Positions 19,029 to 24,447 of a DNA stretch of 64,000 nt are shown here, one piece after another. Origin of the DNA: Streptomycetaceae bacterium (GTDB lineage: Bacteria; Actinomycetota; Actinomycetes; Nanopelagicales; Nanopelagicaceae); the NCBI GenBank assembly GCA_027483765.1, contig JAIXTW010000011.1, positions 62,001 through 126,000 on the forward strand, written 5' to 3'. The translations under genes and the position numbers were made by a program. How positions within the stretch are numbered: position 1 is the stretch's first letter; each line of letters opens with the position of its first letter. Under the pieces are notes generated by a model. The model ran no database searches and was not told the origin of the DNA. It was given only the letters and a program-made list of their open reading frames with translations.

Positions 19029-20210
19029 ATGAAGACTCCTCCGCTCGTGACTCCAGGCCCTGCCCTAACCGTTGATGAGGTTCGTCGATATAGCCGTCAC
19101 TTGATCATTCCCGATGTTGCAATGGCGGGTCAGCAACGCATGATGAATGCCAAAGTTCTCTGCGTTGGTGCAGGAGGTCTTGGTTCGCCAGCGCTTATGT
19201 ACTTAGCCGCTGCCGGGATTGGCACACTTGGAATTGTTGAATACGACACTGTTGATGAATCAAATCTTCAGCGTCAAATCATTCATGGTCAATCAGATAT
19301 TGGTAAGAGCAAGGCGCAGAGTGCAAAAGAGAAGATCTCTGAGATTAATCCATACGTAAATGTCATCACACATGAAACCAGACTTGATAACTCAAATGTG
19401 ATGGAGATTTTCTCCCAATACGACATCATTGTTGACGGCACCGATAATTTTGCAACGCGTTACTTGGTTAACGATGCATGTGTGCTTTTGAAGAAACCTT
19501 ATGTATGGGGTTCCATTTATCGATTCGATGGCCAAGCAAGTGTTTTCTGGGCAGAGTACGGCCCTTGCTATCGCTGCCTTTATCCGGAACCGCCACCCCC
19601 AGGAATGGTGCCAAGTTGCGCCGAAGGCGGAGTGCTTGGTGTCCTGTGCGCAACCATTGGTTCGATTCAAACTACTGAGGCGATTAAGGTACTCACTGGA
19701 ATTGGCGAGCCGCTTATTGGTTCATTAATGGTCTATGACGCTCTGGATATGAGCTTTAGGAAGATTAAAGTGCGTAAGGATCCGAACTGCCCGCTATGTA
19801 GTGACAATGCGAAGCAGACTGCACTGCTTCCTGACTACGAGGCATTTTGTGGAGTGCTTTCAGATGCAGCGCAAGAAGCTAGCGCTGGATCAACAATTAC
19901 CGTGCAAGAGTTGAAGTCCAAAATTGATGCGCAGGATAACTATTACCTCATCGATGTTCGCGAACCAAGTGAATACGAAATTGTAAATATCCCGACTGCG
20001 CACCTGATTCCAAAGCAAGGATTTATTGATGGATCGGTTTTAGCAACTCTTCCGCACGATAAACCAATAATCTTGCATTGCAAGAGTGGAGTCCGCTCTG
20101 CTGAATGTCTAGCGATTCTAAAGAACGCTGGATTCTCTGATGCCTCTCACGTCTCTGGTGGTGTCGTAGCTTGGGCCAAGCAGATTGATACATCGCTGCC
20201 GGTTTACTAA
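19029..20210 (+). CDS. moeZ: ThiF/MoeB adenylyltransferase-rhodanese fusion (MoeZ type)
   Basis: RYSRHLIIPDVAMAGQQRMMNAKVLCVGAGGLGSPALMYLAAAG; CxxC zinc motifs; C-terminal rhodanese HCKSGVRS. Confidence 0.93.
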   Translation: MKTPPLVTPGPALTVDEVRRYSRHLIIPDVAMAGQQRMMNAKVLCVGAGGLGSPALMYLAAAGIGTLGIVEYDTVDESNLQRQIIHGQSDIGKSKAQSAKEKISEINPYVNVITHETRLDNSNVMEIFSQYDIIVDGTDNFATRYLVNDACVLLKKPYVWGSIYRFDGQASVFWAEYGPCYRCLYPEPPPPGMVPSCAEGGVLGVLCATIGSIQTTEAIKVLTGIGEPLIGSLMVYDALDMSFRKIKVRKDPNCPLCSDNAKQTALLPDYEAFCGVLSDAAQEASAGSTITVQELKSKIDAQDNYYLIDVREPSEYEIVNIPTAHLIPKQGFIDGSVLATLPHDKPIILHCKSGVRSAECLAILKNAGFSDASHVSGGVVAWAKQIDTSLPVY

Positions 20211-21082
20211 TGCTCGATAACTACACTGGCTATCGCATGCTCCTTGTCCATGCACACCCTGATGATGAAACGATTAATAATGGAAGCACGATGGCGCTCT
20301 ATGCATCGCGCGGGGCACAGGTAACTCTTATTACCTGCACGCGCGGTGAAGAAGGCGAAGTTTTGATTCCAGAGCTAGCCCATTTAGCTGCGCACGAGAC
20401 AGATACTTTGGGAGACCACCGCGTTACCGAATTAGCGCAAGCGATGGTGGCACTCGGAGTTAAGGATCACCGCTTTTTGGGTGAGGGTGTTACTCGCTAC
20501 CGAGATAGCGGGATGATGGGAACCCCAGCAAATGATGGACCGAATACATTTTGGAAAGCCGATTTTGATCAGGCAACACAATCACTGGTATCCGTCATTA
20601 ACGAGGTGAAGCCCCATGTGCTTATTACCTACGATGAATTTGGTGGATATGGACATCCAGATCACATTCAAGCGCATCGTGTTGCGATGGCGGCGGCTGA
20701 GAGCGCCCAATGGAAAATTCCAAAGATTTACTGGAACGTGATGCCTAAATCTGTAATCCAAGATGGCATCGAAAAGATGAAGGAGCTTGGCTCAGACTTT
20801 ATGGGAGCAGAAAGCGCCGATGATTTGCCCTTCGCCAAAGATGACTCATTCGTGCATGCACGTGTTAATGGCGCCGAGTATGTTCATCACAAAATGGATG
20901 CAATGCGTGCACACGGAACCCAGATTGCAATCGATGGCCCGTTCTTCTCACTCTCAAATAATTTAGGTTTAGAAATCTGGGGAAATGAGTACTACACACT
21001 TGTCCATGGTGAGAAAAGTGGGCAACTGGATTCGGCAGGTCATGAGACAGACCTCTTTGCCGGCATCGTGCTGACCTCATGA
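20210..21082 (+). CDS. PIG-L family deacetylase (MshB/Mca-like mycothiol enzyme)
   Basis: LLVHAHPDDETINNGSTMALYASRGAQVTLITCTRGEEGEV; YGHPDHIQAH. Confidence 0.9.
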   Translation: MLDNYTGYRMLLVHAHPDDETINNGSTMALYASRGAQVTLITCTRGEEGEVLIPELAHLAAHETDTLGDHRVTELAQAMVALGVKDHRFLGEGVTRYRDSGMMGTPANDGPNTFWKADFDQATQSLVSVINEVKPHVLITYDEFGGYGHPDHIQAHRVAMAAAESAQWKIPKIYWNVMPKSVIQDGIEKMKELGSDFMGAESADDLPFAKDDSFVHARVNGAEYVHHKMDAMRAHGTQIAIDGPFFSLSNNLGLEIWGNEYYTLVHGEKSGQLDSAGHETDLFAGIVLTS

Positions 21083-21390
21083 GAGCGCTGGCAGCCCTGC
21101 TACTGGGCTCACTTATTGGCATAGCTGCAACTCTGATTCATCCCACAATGACACCCTTCGGTGTCATTCTTGCAGTTGTTGCAACGTACTTATCGATTCG
21201 ATGGATTGGTAGATTTTTTGGCAGCAAGAGATACAAGTTAATCGCCTTGATTGGCTGGTTTATTGTCATTATCCGAGCCGGCACATTTGGAGTAGGGCAG
21301 GAACTTCTGATTCAAGGCGATAACGCAGGTACTGCACTTCTATTTGCTGGGTTTATTCTGGGAATCGTTGCGGTACTTCAACGCGCTTAA
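21079..21390 (+). CDS. Small hydrophobic membrane protein of unknown function
   Basis: 103 aa with 3-4 hydrophobic segments, ATGA-coupled to the upstream gene. Confidence 0.75.
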   Translation: MRALAALLLGSLIGIAATLIHPTMTPFGVILAVVATYLSIRWIGRFFGSKRYKLIALIGWFIVIIRAGTFGVGQELLIQGDNAGTALLFAGFILGIVAVLQRA

Positions 21391-21391
21391 C

Positions 21392-22966
21392 TTATTTCCA
21401 GGCCCAACTTTGCCCGGATGCGCCATCGCTAATTTCTAAACCTGCATCTTCAAGCTCTTTGCGAAGTGCATCACTTCGACTCCAATCTTTGGATGCTCGA
21501 GCCAGCGCTCTCTCTGCGAGGAGTTCTTCTAACTGCGCTGTGAGCGGTTTAGATTCTGGAACTGTATTGAGGTCCAGTCCTAAAACTTGATCCGCAAATA
21601 AGAAAATCGCGCGCTTATCTTGTGATCCCATTGTGGAATCTTTCTCAATCGCACGTAGTCGCTGCATCGCTCTCGGCGTATCAAGGTCATTGGTCAGAGC
21701 ATCAGAAATCTCTTGGTCAAACTTGAGATCGAGCGAACTTCCCCACTGCGCCATCAAGGCTCGCCATCGTCGAAGTGTTACGTGTGCCGCCTGTAGCGAT
21801 GCCCAAGAAAGATCCATCTGCGAGCGGTAGCGGTTTTCGAGGAGTGAAAAACGAAGTGAGAGCGGATCCAAACCGCGCACTTGCACGTCACTGAGCAGAA
21901 CAACATTGCCAGCGCTCTTTGACATCTTTCGACCTTCAAAAAGTAGATGTTCGCCATGAACCCACGTGCCTACTACCTCGGTAGAAGTCAACGAATTGGA
22001 TTGCGCACGTTCATTCTCATGGTGCGGGAAGCGCAAATCTATTCCACCAACATGAATATCAACGCGGGCCTGCAGAAAGTCGATCGACATGGCGCTGCAC
22101 TCGATATGCCAGCCCGGAAAACCTGCTCCCCACGGTGAATCCCAAATCATCTGGGTGCGCTCACCTGCTAATTTCCAGAGCGCCCAATCTGCATGAAATC
22201 GCTTGCCGCTTTCGTCAGTGTGCTCGTGTCGATGGCCAGGCTTAAGGGCTTCTAATTTATTGCCACTGATTGCACCATAACTTTCAAAAGACGCTGCGTC
22301 GAAGTACACGTGCCCATCACTTCCGACGTAGGCGTTTTTCGCCGCTATCAACTTCTCAATCGATGCAATCATCGATTCCATATTCTCTGATGCCCGCGGA
22401 TATCTATCGGCAACGCGCACGTTTAGTAGTTGTAAATCTTTATGAAATCGTGCTTCAAATTCGCGGGCAATCGCAAAGGGATCAATCTGGGTACGTTGTG
22501 ATTCAGCCAATAACTTATCTTCACCCACAATATCGTCAGCCATATGTCCGACGTCGGTAATGTTCTGAATCAACTCAACTTCCACTCCAGTCATGGCAAG
22601 AGTTCGAGCGATTACATCGGCAAGTAAGAAAGTGCGTAGGTTGCCAACGTGGGCATCTCGGTAGACCGTAGGGCCACAGCAGTAGATCGATACGTATCCA
22701 TCGCGACTTTCAATGGTGCTCACTTCACGTTTGAGGGTGTCATAGATACGTAACTGGCCAGCTTCAGCATCTCTGCGATTAAAGACGGGGATGAGTCGGA
22801 AGAAAGCAATCTCTTCCGGTTCGAATTCAACAACTTCGCCTCGGCGATTGATAAGGGTTCTCTCACTCTGTAAGACGCCAACGATGTCTCGAAATCCGCC
22901 ATCGGAATCGCGTAGCCGAATCGTGGCCCGCTTGCCCACTTCTGCGCGCAAAGTTTCGGCGTTCAC
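21392..22966 (-). CDS. cysS: Cysteinyl-tRNA synthetase with extra N-terminal SH3-like domain
   Basis: YCCGPTVYRDAHVGNLRTFLLADV, NITDVGHMADD, WHIECSAMS, HHENERAQS, GRKMSKSAGN; extra ~65 aa RATIRLRDSDGGFRDIVGVLQSERTLINRRGEVVEFEPEEIAFFRLIP at N-terminus. Confidence 0.88.
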   Translation of the reverse strand: MNAETLRAEVGKRATIRLRDSDGGFRDIVGVLQSERTLINRRGEVVEFEPEEIAFFRLIPVFNRRDAEAGQLRIYDTLKREVSTIESRDGYVSIYCCGPTVYRDAHVGNLRTFLLADVIARTLAMTGVEVELIQNITDVGHMADDIVGEDKLLAESQRTQIDPFAIAREFEARFHKDLQLLNVRVADRYPRASENMESMIASIEKLIAAKNAYVGSDGHVYFDAASFESYGAISGNKLEALKPGHRHEHTDESGKRFHADWALWKLAGERTQMIWDSPWGAGFPGWHIECSAMSIDFLQARVDIHVGGIDLRFPHHENERAQSNSLTSTEVVGTWVHGEHLLFEGRKMSKSAGNVVLLSDVQVRGLDPLSLRFSLLENRYRSQMDLSWASLQAAHVTLRRWRALMAQWGSSLDLKFDQEISDALTNDLDTPRAMQRLRAIEKDSTMGSQDKRAIFLFADQVLGLDLNTVPESKPLTAQLEELLAERALARASKDWSRSDALRKELEDAGLEISDGASGQSWAWK

Positions 22967-23066: not shown

Positions 23067-23387
23067 GTGACATATGTAATCGCCGAACCTTGCGTAGACG
23101 TTAAAGATAAGTCATGCCGGGAAGAATGCCCAGTCGATTGCATCTACGACGGAACCCGCATGCTTTACATCCAGCCCGATGAATGTGTCGATTGCGGTGC
23201 GTGTGAGCCTGTCTGTCCGGTAGAGGCAATTTATTATGAAGACGATGTTCCCGGTCAGTGGGAAGGTTACAAAAAGATCAATACCGAATTTTTTATTGAA
23301 TTAGGTTCACCTGGGGGAGCAGCAAAGGTCGGAGAAACAAATACCGATCACGCTGATGTCACCGCTCTTGCGCCAAAAACTACCTGA
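23067..23387 (+). CDS. fdxA: 7Fe/3Fe-4S-4Fe-4S ferredoxin
   Basis: TYVIAEPCVDVKDKSCREECPVDCIYDGTRMLYIQPDECVDCGACEPVCPVEAI; GTG start at 23067 after GGAGGA. Confidence 0.95.
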   Translation: MTYVIAEPCVDVKDKSCREECPVDCIYDGTRMLYIQPDECVDCGACEPVCPVEAIYYEDDVPGQWEGYKKINTEFFIELGSPGGAAKVGETNTDHADVTALAPKTT

Positions 23388-24447
23388 TTTTCCGTGGGAC
23401 GCACTTGCTCCTTATGGAGAGATAGCGCGTAAACATCCCGATGGCGCAATCGATTTATCGGTAGGAACTCCGGTAGACCCAACACCTGAATTTATTCAGG
23501 AAGCTCTCCGAGATGCATCGGATTCGCCGGGTTATCCAGTCACAATTGGAACTCAAGAACTACGCAATGCAATTCATCAATGGGCGGTTAACACAGTTGG
23601 AGCCAGTGGCGATTTCGCAGTCCTGCCACTGATTGGCTCAAAAGAGTTTGTCGCGTGGCTACCAACATTTCTCGAATCGGCAACTGTTCTGTATCCGCAG
23701 GTTGCCTATCCAACATACTTAGTGGGCGCTCTACTTGCACAAGCAAAACCAACTTCGGTTGCGATTGATGCAACAACCTGGCCAGCAGCCGATTTAGCGT
23801 GGGTAAATTCTCCGTCAAACCCAACTGGACGCGTTCACTCTGAATCCGAATTACGTGCAGCCATTGATTGGGCCAGAAAGCGTAAGAGCATCGTTGTTTC
23901 TGATGAGTGCTACTTAGAATTTGGTGATACCAAGACACCTACCTCTATTTTGCGATACACCGATGGTGATAACACCAATATTTTGGCAGTTTTTTCCTTG
24001 TCGAAGCGATCTTCGATGGCGGGCTATCGCGCGGCTTTTGTAGTGGGGGACCCCCAATTGATCGCCAGAATTCTTGAAGTGCGAAAGCACGCCGGCATGA
24101 TGGTCTCCTTGCCAGTGCAGAACGCAATGGTGGCAGCACTTTCGGATAGCTCCCACGTTGCAGAACAACGCGCACGCTATAACGCTCGTCGTGCACGCCT
24201 GGCACCAGCACTAATTTCCGCTGGATTTACCATCGATCACTCCGAAGCTGGCCTCTACATATGGGCAACTAGAAATGAAAGCTCTTGGGATTCAATTGCC
24301 TGGCTCGCAGCTCTGGGAATTCTAGCCACCCCAGGAATTTTTTATGGGGATGCCGGAAAGCAACATATCCGCATCGCAATGACTGCAACGGATGAACAGA
24401 TTGCGACAGCTGCGGCTCGCATTGTGGCAAAGGTGAGCGCGCAGTAA
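23356..24447 (+). CDS. dapC: Succinyldiaminopimelate transaminase (PLP class I/II aminotransferase)
   Basis: NSPSNPTGRVHSESEL, FSLSKRSSMAGYRAAFVVGD; position directly after fdxA. Confidence 0.9.
   Translation: MSPLLRQKLPDFPWDALAPYGEIARKHPDGAIDLSVGTPVDPTPEFIQEALRDASDSPGYPVTIGTQELRNAIHQWAVNTVGASGDFAVLPLIGSKEFVAWLPTFLESATVLYPQVAYPTYLVGALLAQAKPTSVAIDATTWPAADLAWVNSPSNPTGRVHSESELRAAIDWARKRKSIVVSDECYLEFGDTKTPTSILRYTDGDNTNILAVFSLSKRSSMAGYRAAFVVGDPQLIARILEVRKHAGMMVSLPVQNAMVAALSDSSHVAEQRARYNARRARLAPALISAGFTIDHSEAGLYIWATRNESSWDSIAWLAALGILATPGIFYGDAGKQHIRIAMTATDEQIATAAARIVAKVSAQ

Follow-up and report, generated by a model that had tools for sequence, protein, structure and literature searches.

The CysRS2 gene and its locus

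We analysed a window of 64,000 nucleotides, the whole stretch considered here, from a genome of 1.29 Mb (G000) with Ca. Planktophila versatilis as a near relative (83% identity for the window protein). The gene under study is one open frame with a GTG start that encodes 524 aa, and the residues quoted in an earlier note on this DNA are in frame in it. The protein consists of a small barrel of about 60 residues, followed by a linker and a complete cysteinyl-tRNA synthetase (CysRS). As a canonical CysRS and MshC are also encoded in the genome, the window gene is a second CysRS, referred to as CysRS2 (Table 1).

Table 1. Position, strand and supporting evidence of the features at the CysRS2 locus
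Feature	Position in window	Strand	Evidence
MshB, mycothiol deacetylase	20210..21082	+	TIGR03445 362 bits, cut-off 224
103-aa membrane protein, convergent neighbour	21079..21390	+	DUF6113-like, PF19608 E 0.0016, below cut-off
CysRS2 gene with fused N-terminal SH3-like domain	21392..22966	-	ORF; TIGR00435 above cut-off; fusion at 19 loci, that of the window among them
Anticodon-binding domain (CysS_C), residues 475-521	21404..21544	-	PF23493 E 6e-8
CysRS catalytic domain, residues 71-394	21785..22756	-	PF01406 E 2.3e-90
KMSKS motif, residues 347-351	21914..21928	-	Alignment
DVGHMADDIVGEDK insert typical of the CysRS2 subtype, residues 138-151	22514..22555	-	Alignment; shared with 3sp1 (Borrelia) and 6ujd (Elizabethkingia)
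HIGH-like motif DAHVGNL, residues 104-110	22637..22657	-	Alignment
Linker, residues 60-70, containing PVFNRRD	22757..22789	-	Conservation; low pLDDT at residues 61-68
SH3/Sm-like small barrel, residues 1-59, SH3_Rv0428c type (PF24551)	22790..22966	-	PF24551 and AlphaFold2
Ferredoxin gene, divergent neighbour, constant locus marker	23067..23387	+	Profile and locus comparison
Aminotransferase (dapC-like), constant locus marker	23356..24447	+	Locus comparison

The TIGR00435 (cysS) match covered residues 72-522 of the window protein and positions 1-464 of the 466 in the profile, with a score of 371.9 bits against a curated cut-off of 340 bits. None of the CysRS structures in the PDB aligned to the window protein ahead of residue ~67-72, which marks the first ~66 residues as an added part. 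This agrees with the earlier note, which had called the ~65 residues ahead of the core foreign to a standard CysRS. The note had also described the core as following without a frame break and keeping a HIGH-like motif (DAHVGN), zinc ligands and KMSKS, and the single ORF and the alignment showed the same. An internal start close to the core, which the note had named as evidence against a fused protein, was looked for in the window and in the relative L006 (P. versatilis). In neither did an ATG, GTG or TTG lie past the SH3 segment and early enough to give a whole catalytic core; the first in-frame starts after that segment were at core position +15 (window) and +58 (L006). With no usable start at the core, the SH3 segment must be translated if the enzyme is made.

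We found 80 relatives, which shared one locus wherever the contig showed it: dapC and ferredoxin genes on one side, divergent from the SH3-containing frame and CysRS2, usually with mshB further on. The PIG-L deacetylase that the earlier note had placed beside the gene is MshB. In other clades mshB is kilobases distant from CysRS2; the mshB neighbour is locus background and by itself does not imply a thiol pathway. The membrane protein encoded between mshB and CysRS2 is kept across Nanopelagicaceae with 31-74% identity. A promoter scan of the ferredoxin-SH3 intergenic region found nothing. Many MAG records with Nanopelagicales-type loci (L014, L025, L027, L038 and others) are titled Bifidobacterium breve or Streptomycetaceae, an apparent mislabelling.

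CysRS2 as a second, probably tRNA-charging CysRS

G000 encodes three full-size CysRS relatives, namely CysRS1, CysRS2 and MshC. CysRS1 (contig C8, 471 aa) scored 452 bits on TIGR00435 and lies beside a SpoU-type rRNA methylase gene; the second canonical cysS that the earlier note had proposed to look for is thus present. MshC (contig C3) scored 522 bits on TIGR03447 against a cut-off of 485, while CysRS2 reached 241.6 bits, below the 485.1 bits of the same model. In the tree, CysRS2 formed a single clade (support, 100) with long branches, apart from CysRS1 and E. coli CysRS.

All four zinc ligands (the equivalents of C28, C209, H234 and E238) were kept in 113/113 aligned CysRS2 sequences, including that of the window. 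We take these residues to be the zinc-bound cysteine site, as in E. coli CysRS. The equivalents of E. coli R427, D436, R439 and D451, presumably the residues that recognise the GCA anticodon in structure 1U0B, were also invariant in 113/113 sequences, as were both KMSKS lysines across the 113. The HIGH signature in CysRS2 is HVGN, with N in the fourth position as in 3sp1 and 6ujd. Because every checked catalytic, zinc and anticodon-recognition position is kept, CysRS2 most likely charges tRNA rather than acting as an MshC-like ligase. The alternative in the earlier note, a paralogue with another role, is not favoured, since CysRS2, unlike MshC, keeps all tRNA-anticodon positions and zinc ligands.

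CysRS2 was compared with three known systems. With the canonical bacterial CysRS (E. coli 1LI5 type) it shares the catalytic core, zinc site, KMSKS and anticodon-binding residues, but it has a DVGHMADD..GEDK insert and HVGN in place of HIGH, two features that the Borrelia 3sp1 and Elizabethkingia 6ujd enzymes show as well. It also differs in coexisting with CysRS1 and, here, in bearing an N-terminal SH3-like domain. MshC, the mycothiol cysteine ligase, has a CysRS-derived catalytic domain in common with CysRS2, but CysRS2 keeps an anticodon domain and a fourth zinc ligand that are missing from MshC. CysRS* of Desulfobacterales is likewise a second CysRS in one genome, but it has no anticodon domain and charges SelC* (PMC9437257), whereas this domain is present in CysRS2, and the 42 tRNA matches in G000 included no second tRNA-Cys.

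These matches hold only one tRNA-Cys, tRNA-Cys(GCA), and a dedicated second tRNA-Cys for CysRS2 was rejected. A zinc-independent back-up CysRS was rejected as well, all four zinc ligands being kept. The KIIK motif has been linked to CysRS persulfide-synthase activity (PMC5660078). The second lysine of this motif is missing in CysRS2; as it is missing in CysRS1 too, the comparison is uninformative on a persulfide-synthase specialisation. Two further tRNA-like genes were seen in G000. One (L199, G000:C7:201219-201292, minus strand), to which ARAGORN assigns no tRNA, has a four-base 'gacg' anticodon and a mispaired anticodon stem. The other (L208, G000:C1:34776-34847, minus strand) is a low-scoring tRNA called Gly(ACC), with an unusual anticodon.

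CysRS2 was found in 51/297 genomes of the class, and several genomes of the same genus without it still have CysRS1. In G001, also of the same genus (L118, G001:C10:34000-41500), CysRS2 looks broken, with the NITDVGHMADD stretch missing and a frame change, while the SH3-GNAT upstream is intact; this may be a pseudogene or an assembly error. The absence of CysRS2 from same-genus genomes with CysRS1 and its apparent breakage in G001 indicate that it is dispensable.

The barrel is a remnant of an SH3-GNAT gene

The window barrel alone scored 16.0 bits (E 0.013) on PF24551 (SH3_Rv0428c), under the curated cut-off of 27, and the fused relative in G023 scored 23.1 bits (E 1.3e-4). PF24551 was matched by 35/36 aligned relatives (best 7e-15). 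The alignment showed five invariant residues (G11, R17, D27, G30 and L32), and the window barrel was 39% identical to the SH3 of the SH3-GNATs L024/L027. Judged from sequence, the N-terminal domain clearly belongs, through intermediates, to the SH3_Rv0428c family. AlphaFold2 predicted a helix and five strands for the barrel (pLDDT 89.3), a confident SH3-like barrel, while linker residues 61-68 were of low confidence in the full-length model. The linker PVF[ND]RRD was conserved in 18/18 members of the main fused clade. The profile matches and the predicted fold bear out the SH3-like domain of Rv0428c GNAT type that the earlier note had recognised.

In the Foldseek comparison that the note had suggested, the barrel found no match below E 0.001 against solved structures. 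Weak matches to small barrels were obtained: GerQ (TM 0.70, E 0.009) was the best, followed by GatD (0.65) and several Hfq (~0.5). These modelled likenesses to GerQ, GatD and Hfq are suggestive only. A search of PDB sequences with the SH3 alignment profile gave nothing significant. The five-strand SH3-like fold class of the barrel is supported but does not point to a function.

The same barrel heads the SH3-GNATs of the Rv0428c/Cg3035 type (PF24551 with PF24553, NCBIfam NF049894). This family includes Cg3035, the N-acetylglutamate synthase of Corynebacterium glutamicum, although the SH3-GNAT relatives found here scored 94-190 bits on the synthase model NF049894, below its 280-bit cut-off. The window gene has the N-terminal barrel and the ferredoxin-adjacent position in common with this type but carries CysRS in place of the GNAT catalytic part. 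A second group of Cg3035 relatives is ferredoxin-adjacent (PMC3827942). By profile search the GNAT catalytic domain was absent from the window protein, and the best GNAT-like trace in G000 was a separate frame of 166 aa.

Among the loci, 19 were fused, 22 had an SH3 mini-ORF with CysRS2, 11 an SH3-GNAT with CysRS2, and 10 an SH3 ORF without CysRS2. The fused frame was present in one clade (the window, L006-L021 and L037) and separately in L028; the same architecture thus occurs in 18 species besides that of the window, and the complete genomes of P. versatilis (L006) and IMCC25003 (L012) contain it. At ten loci the stop of the SH3 mini-ORF and the start of CysRS2 overlap by four bases (ATGA/GTGA). 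An example with SH3-GNAT and CysRS2 is L024, whose GNAT part matches PF24553 with E 1.5e-18, and two of the CysRS2 nearest the fused clade (L166 and L167) have an SH3-GNAT directly upstream. In six/six same-genus genomes without CysRS2, an SH3 mini-ORF of 66-72 aa lies between the ferredoxin and membrane-protein genes, and an SH3 or SH3-GNAT next to ferredoxin was also seen in further families of the class. Outside Nanopelagicaceae, CysRS2 was present without an SH3 beside it in 36 loci, so that either part can occur without the other.

The relatives at this locus show that the barrel is a remnant of an SH3-GNAT gene that once lay upstream of CysRS2, and they display most stages of a gene fusion. 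A locus tree (ferredoxin, dapC and mshB, 52 rows) gave two fusion origins (bootstrap 2-2), the second (L028) being a single MAG, together with two CysRS2 losses and four GNAT changes. SH3 was present in all 52 rows, which is partly a result of row choice, though the six CysRS2-less genomes were not picked for SH3. An SH3-GNAT lies divergent from the ferredoxin gene across Actinomycetia, and it was a neighbour of CysRS2. The GNAT part was lost repeatedly in Nanopelagicaceae, leaving a free barrel gene that often overlaps the CysRS2 start by ATGA/GTGA, and in two lineages the leftover SH3 frame ran into CysRS2 to give a single frame.

The median dN/dS of the SH3 segment (Nei-Gojobori) was 0.15 in fused genes, 0.16 in mini-ORFs beside CysRS2 and 0.11 in mini-ORFs of genomes without CysRS2, and that of the CysRS2 core was 0.08. 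Synonymous saturation limits the precision of these values and a few pairs, L006/L007 for one, differ too little to inform, but the close pairs L010/L011 (dN 0.009, dS 0.45) and L119/L120 (0.04, 0.51) agree with them. Purifying selection acts on the SH3 segment in each of the three contexts compared. Together with the mini-ORF of CysRS2-less genomes, this argues for a self-sufficient module older than the fusion rather than a CysRS invention.

Role of the barrel and of the fusion

PF24551 was single-copy in the 99/148 class genomes that have it, in frames from under 100 aa, of which many are short, up to GNAT size. Other actinobacterial families (for instance L133, L135; G082, G163, G155) also have free SH3_Rv0428c proteins, ~80-115 aa long and encoded next to ferredoxin or at other sites. 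The single-copy free proteins are an uncharacterised small-barrel family. A Cg3035 clone with ~800 of 1008 bp, missing ~200 bp of the 5' part, still complemented (PMC3827942). The missing stretch is roughly as long as the SH3 domain, a hint that GNAT activity does not need SH3. In view of this clone and of the free SH3 proteins that persist, the barrel most likely has a job of its own. CysRS2 would activate cysteine with ATP and charge the single tRNA-Cys(GCA) alongside CysRS1, and the barrel would retain its own older binding job, now tethered through the PVF[ND]RRD linker, rather than being a CysRS-made part. The account as a whole, an auxiliary tRNA-type CysRS2 joined to an SH3/Sm-like barrel from an SH3-GNAT that keeps its older job, is in our judgement probable. 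A broader proposal, which we regard as doubtful, is that the single-copy SH3_Rv0428c barrel, whether a free protein of 66-120 aa or the head of a GNAT or CysRS, is an Sm/SH3-like nucleic-acid-binding protein of Actinomycetia acting in translation or RNA metabolism, a role that both the CysRS fusion and the peptide-deformylase neighbourhood of Cg3035 would reflect.

The main rival to an independent job is that the barrel became a true accessory of CysRS2, contacting tRNA, the ribosome or the dimer partner, and that the fusion was selected for this. Its best support comes from the two independent fusions and the linker invariant in 18/18, to which can be added the four-base overlaps, implying coupled translation before fusion, the purifying selection on the fused SH3 and the weak fold likeness to barrels with RNA-related roles, Hfq and archaeal GatD among them. 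However, constraint on the barrel is equal or stronger in the six genomes without CysRS2, the barrel is kept class-wide without CysRS2, and CysRS2 is kept without an adjacent SH3 in 36 loci. We consider it rather unlikely. The earlier note had proposed an accessory module, and the added SH3-like domain is indeed real; given its origin as a remnant, its existence as a free protein of 66-72 aa and its persistence without CysRS2, the data allow an accessory role for the CysRS but do not call for one.

That CysRS2 is instead an MshC-like cysteine ligase, or another non-translational enzyme tied to mycothiol through mshB and GNAT, is improbable. The adjacent mshB, the GNAT upstream in relatives and the coexistence of CysRS1 would fit such an enzyme, but the genuine MshC lies elsewhere in the genome (522 bits against 485), CysRS2 scores only 241.6 bits on that model, and mshB is kilobases away in other clades. 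As the main explanation it was rejected on the true MshC and on the anticodon domain and zinc ligands, including the fourth ligand, which MshC lacks. A frame or assembly artefact, with SH3 and CysRS2 really two genes or translation beginning at the core, would agree with the two overlapping ORFs in sister lineages, but it is hardly credible given that 18 species of one clade, the complete genomes L006 and L012 among them, share the open frame, that the window and L006 lack a usable core start, and that dN/dS is low.

CysRS, MshC, SH3_Rv0428c and Cg3035-type GNATs are already known families. The collection of papers searched had none on cysS2, Planktophila CysRS, another CysRS of this type as a second one in Actinobacteria, or an SH3-like extension of a bacterial synthetase, which is not proof of novelty. 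The locus offers a clear, replicated record of a tRNA synthetase fusion, from a two-gene operon through an enzyme eroded to its N-terminal domain and overlapping frames to one gene. It points to a full-length second CysRS that is dispensable and occurs in streamlined freshwater Actinobacteria as well as in scattered other Actinomycetia, and to a single-copy small-barrel protein that outlasts both enzyme partners. The carriers of the fusion are some abundant freshwater bacteria, in which a spare CysRS has been joined to the leftover barrel of a neighbouring acetyltransferase gene.
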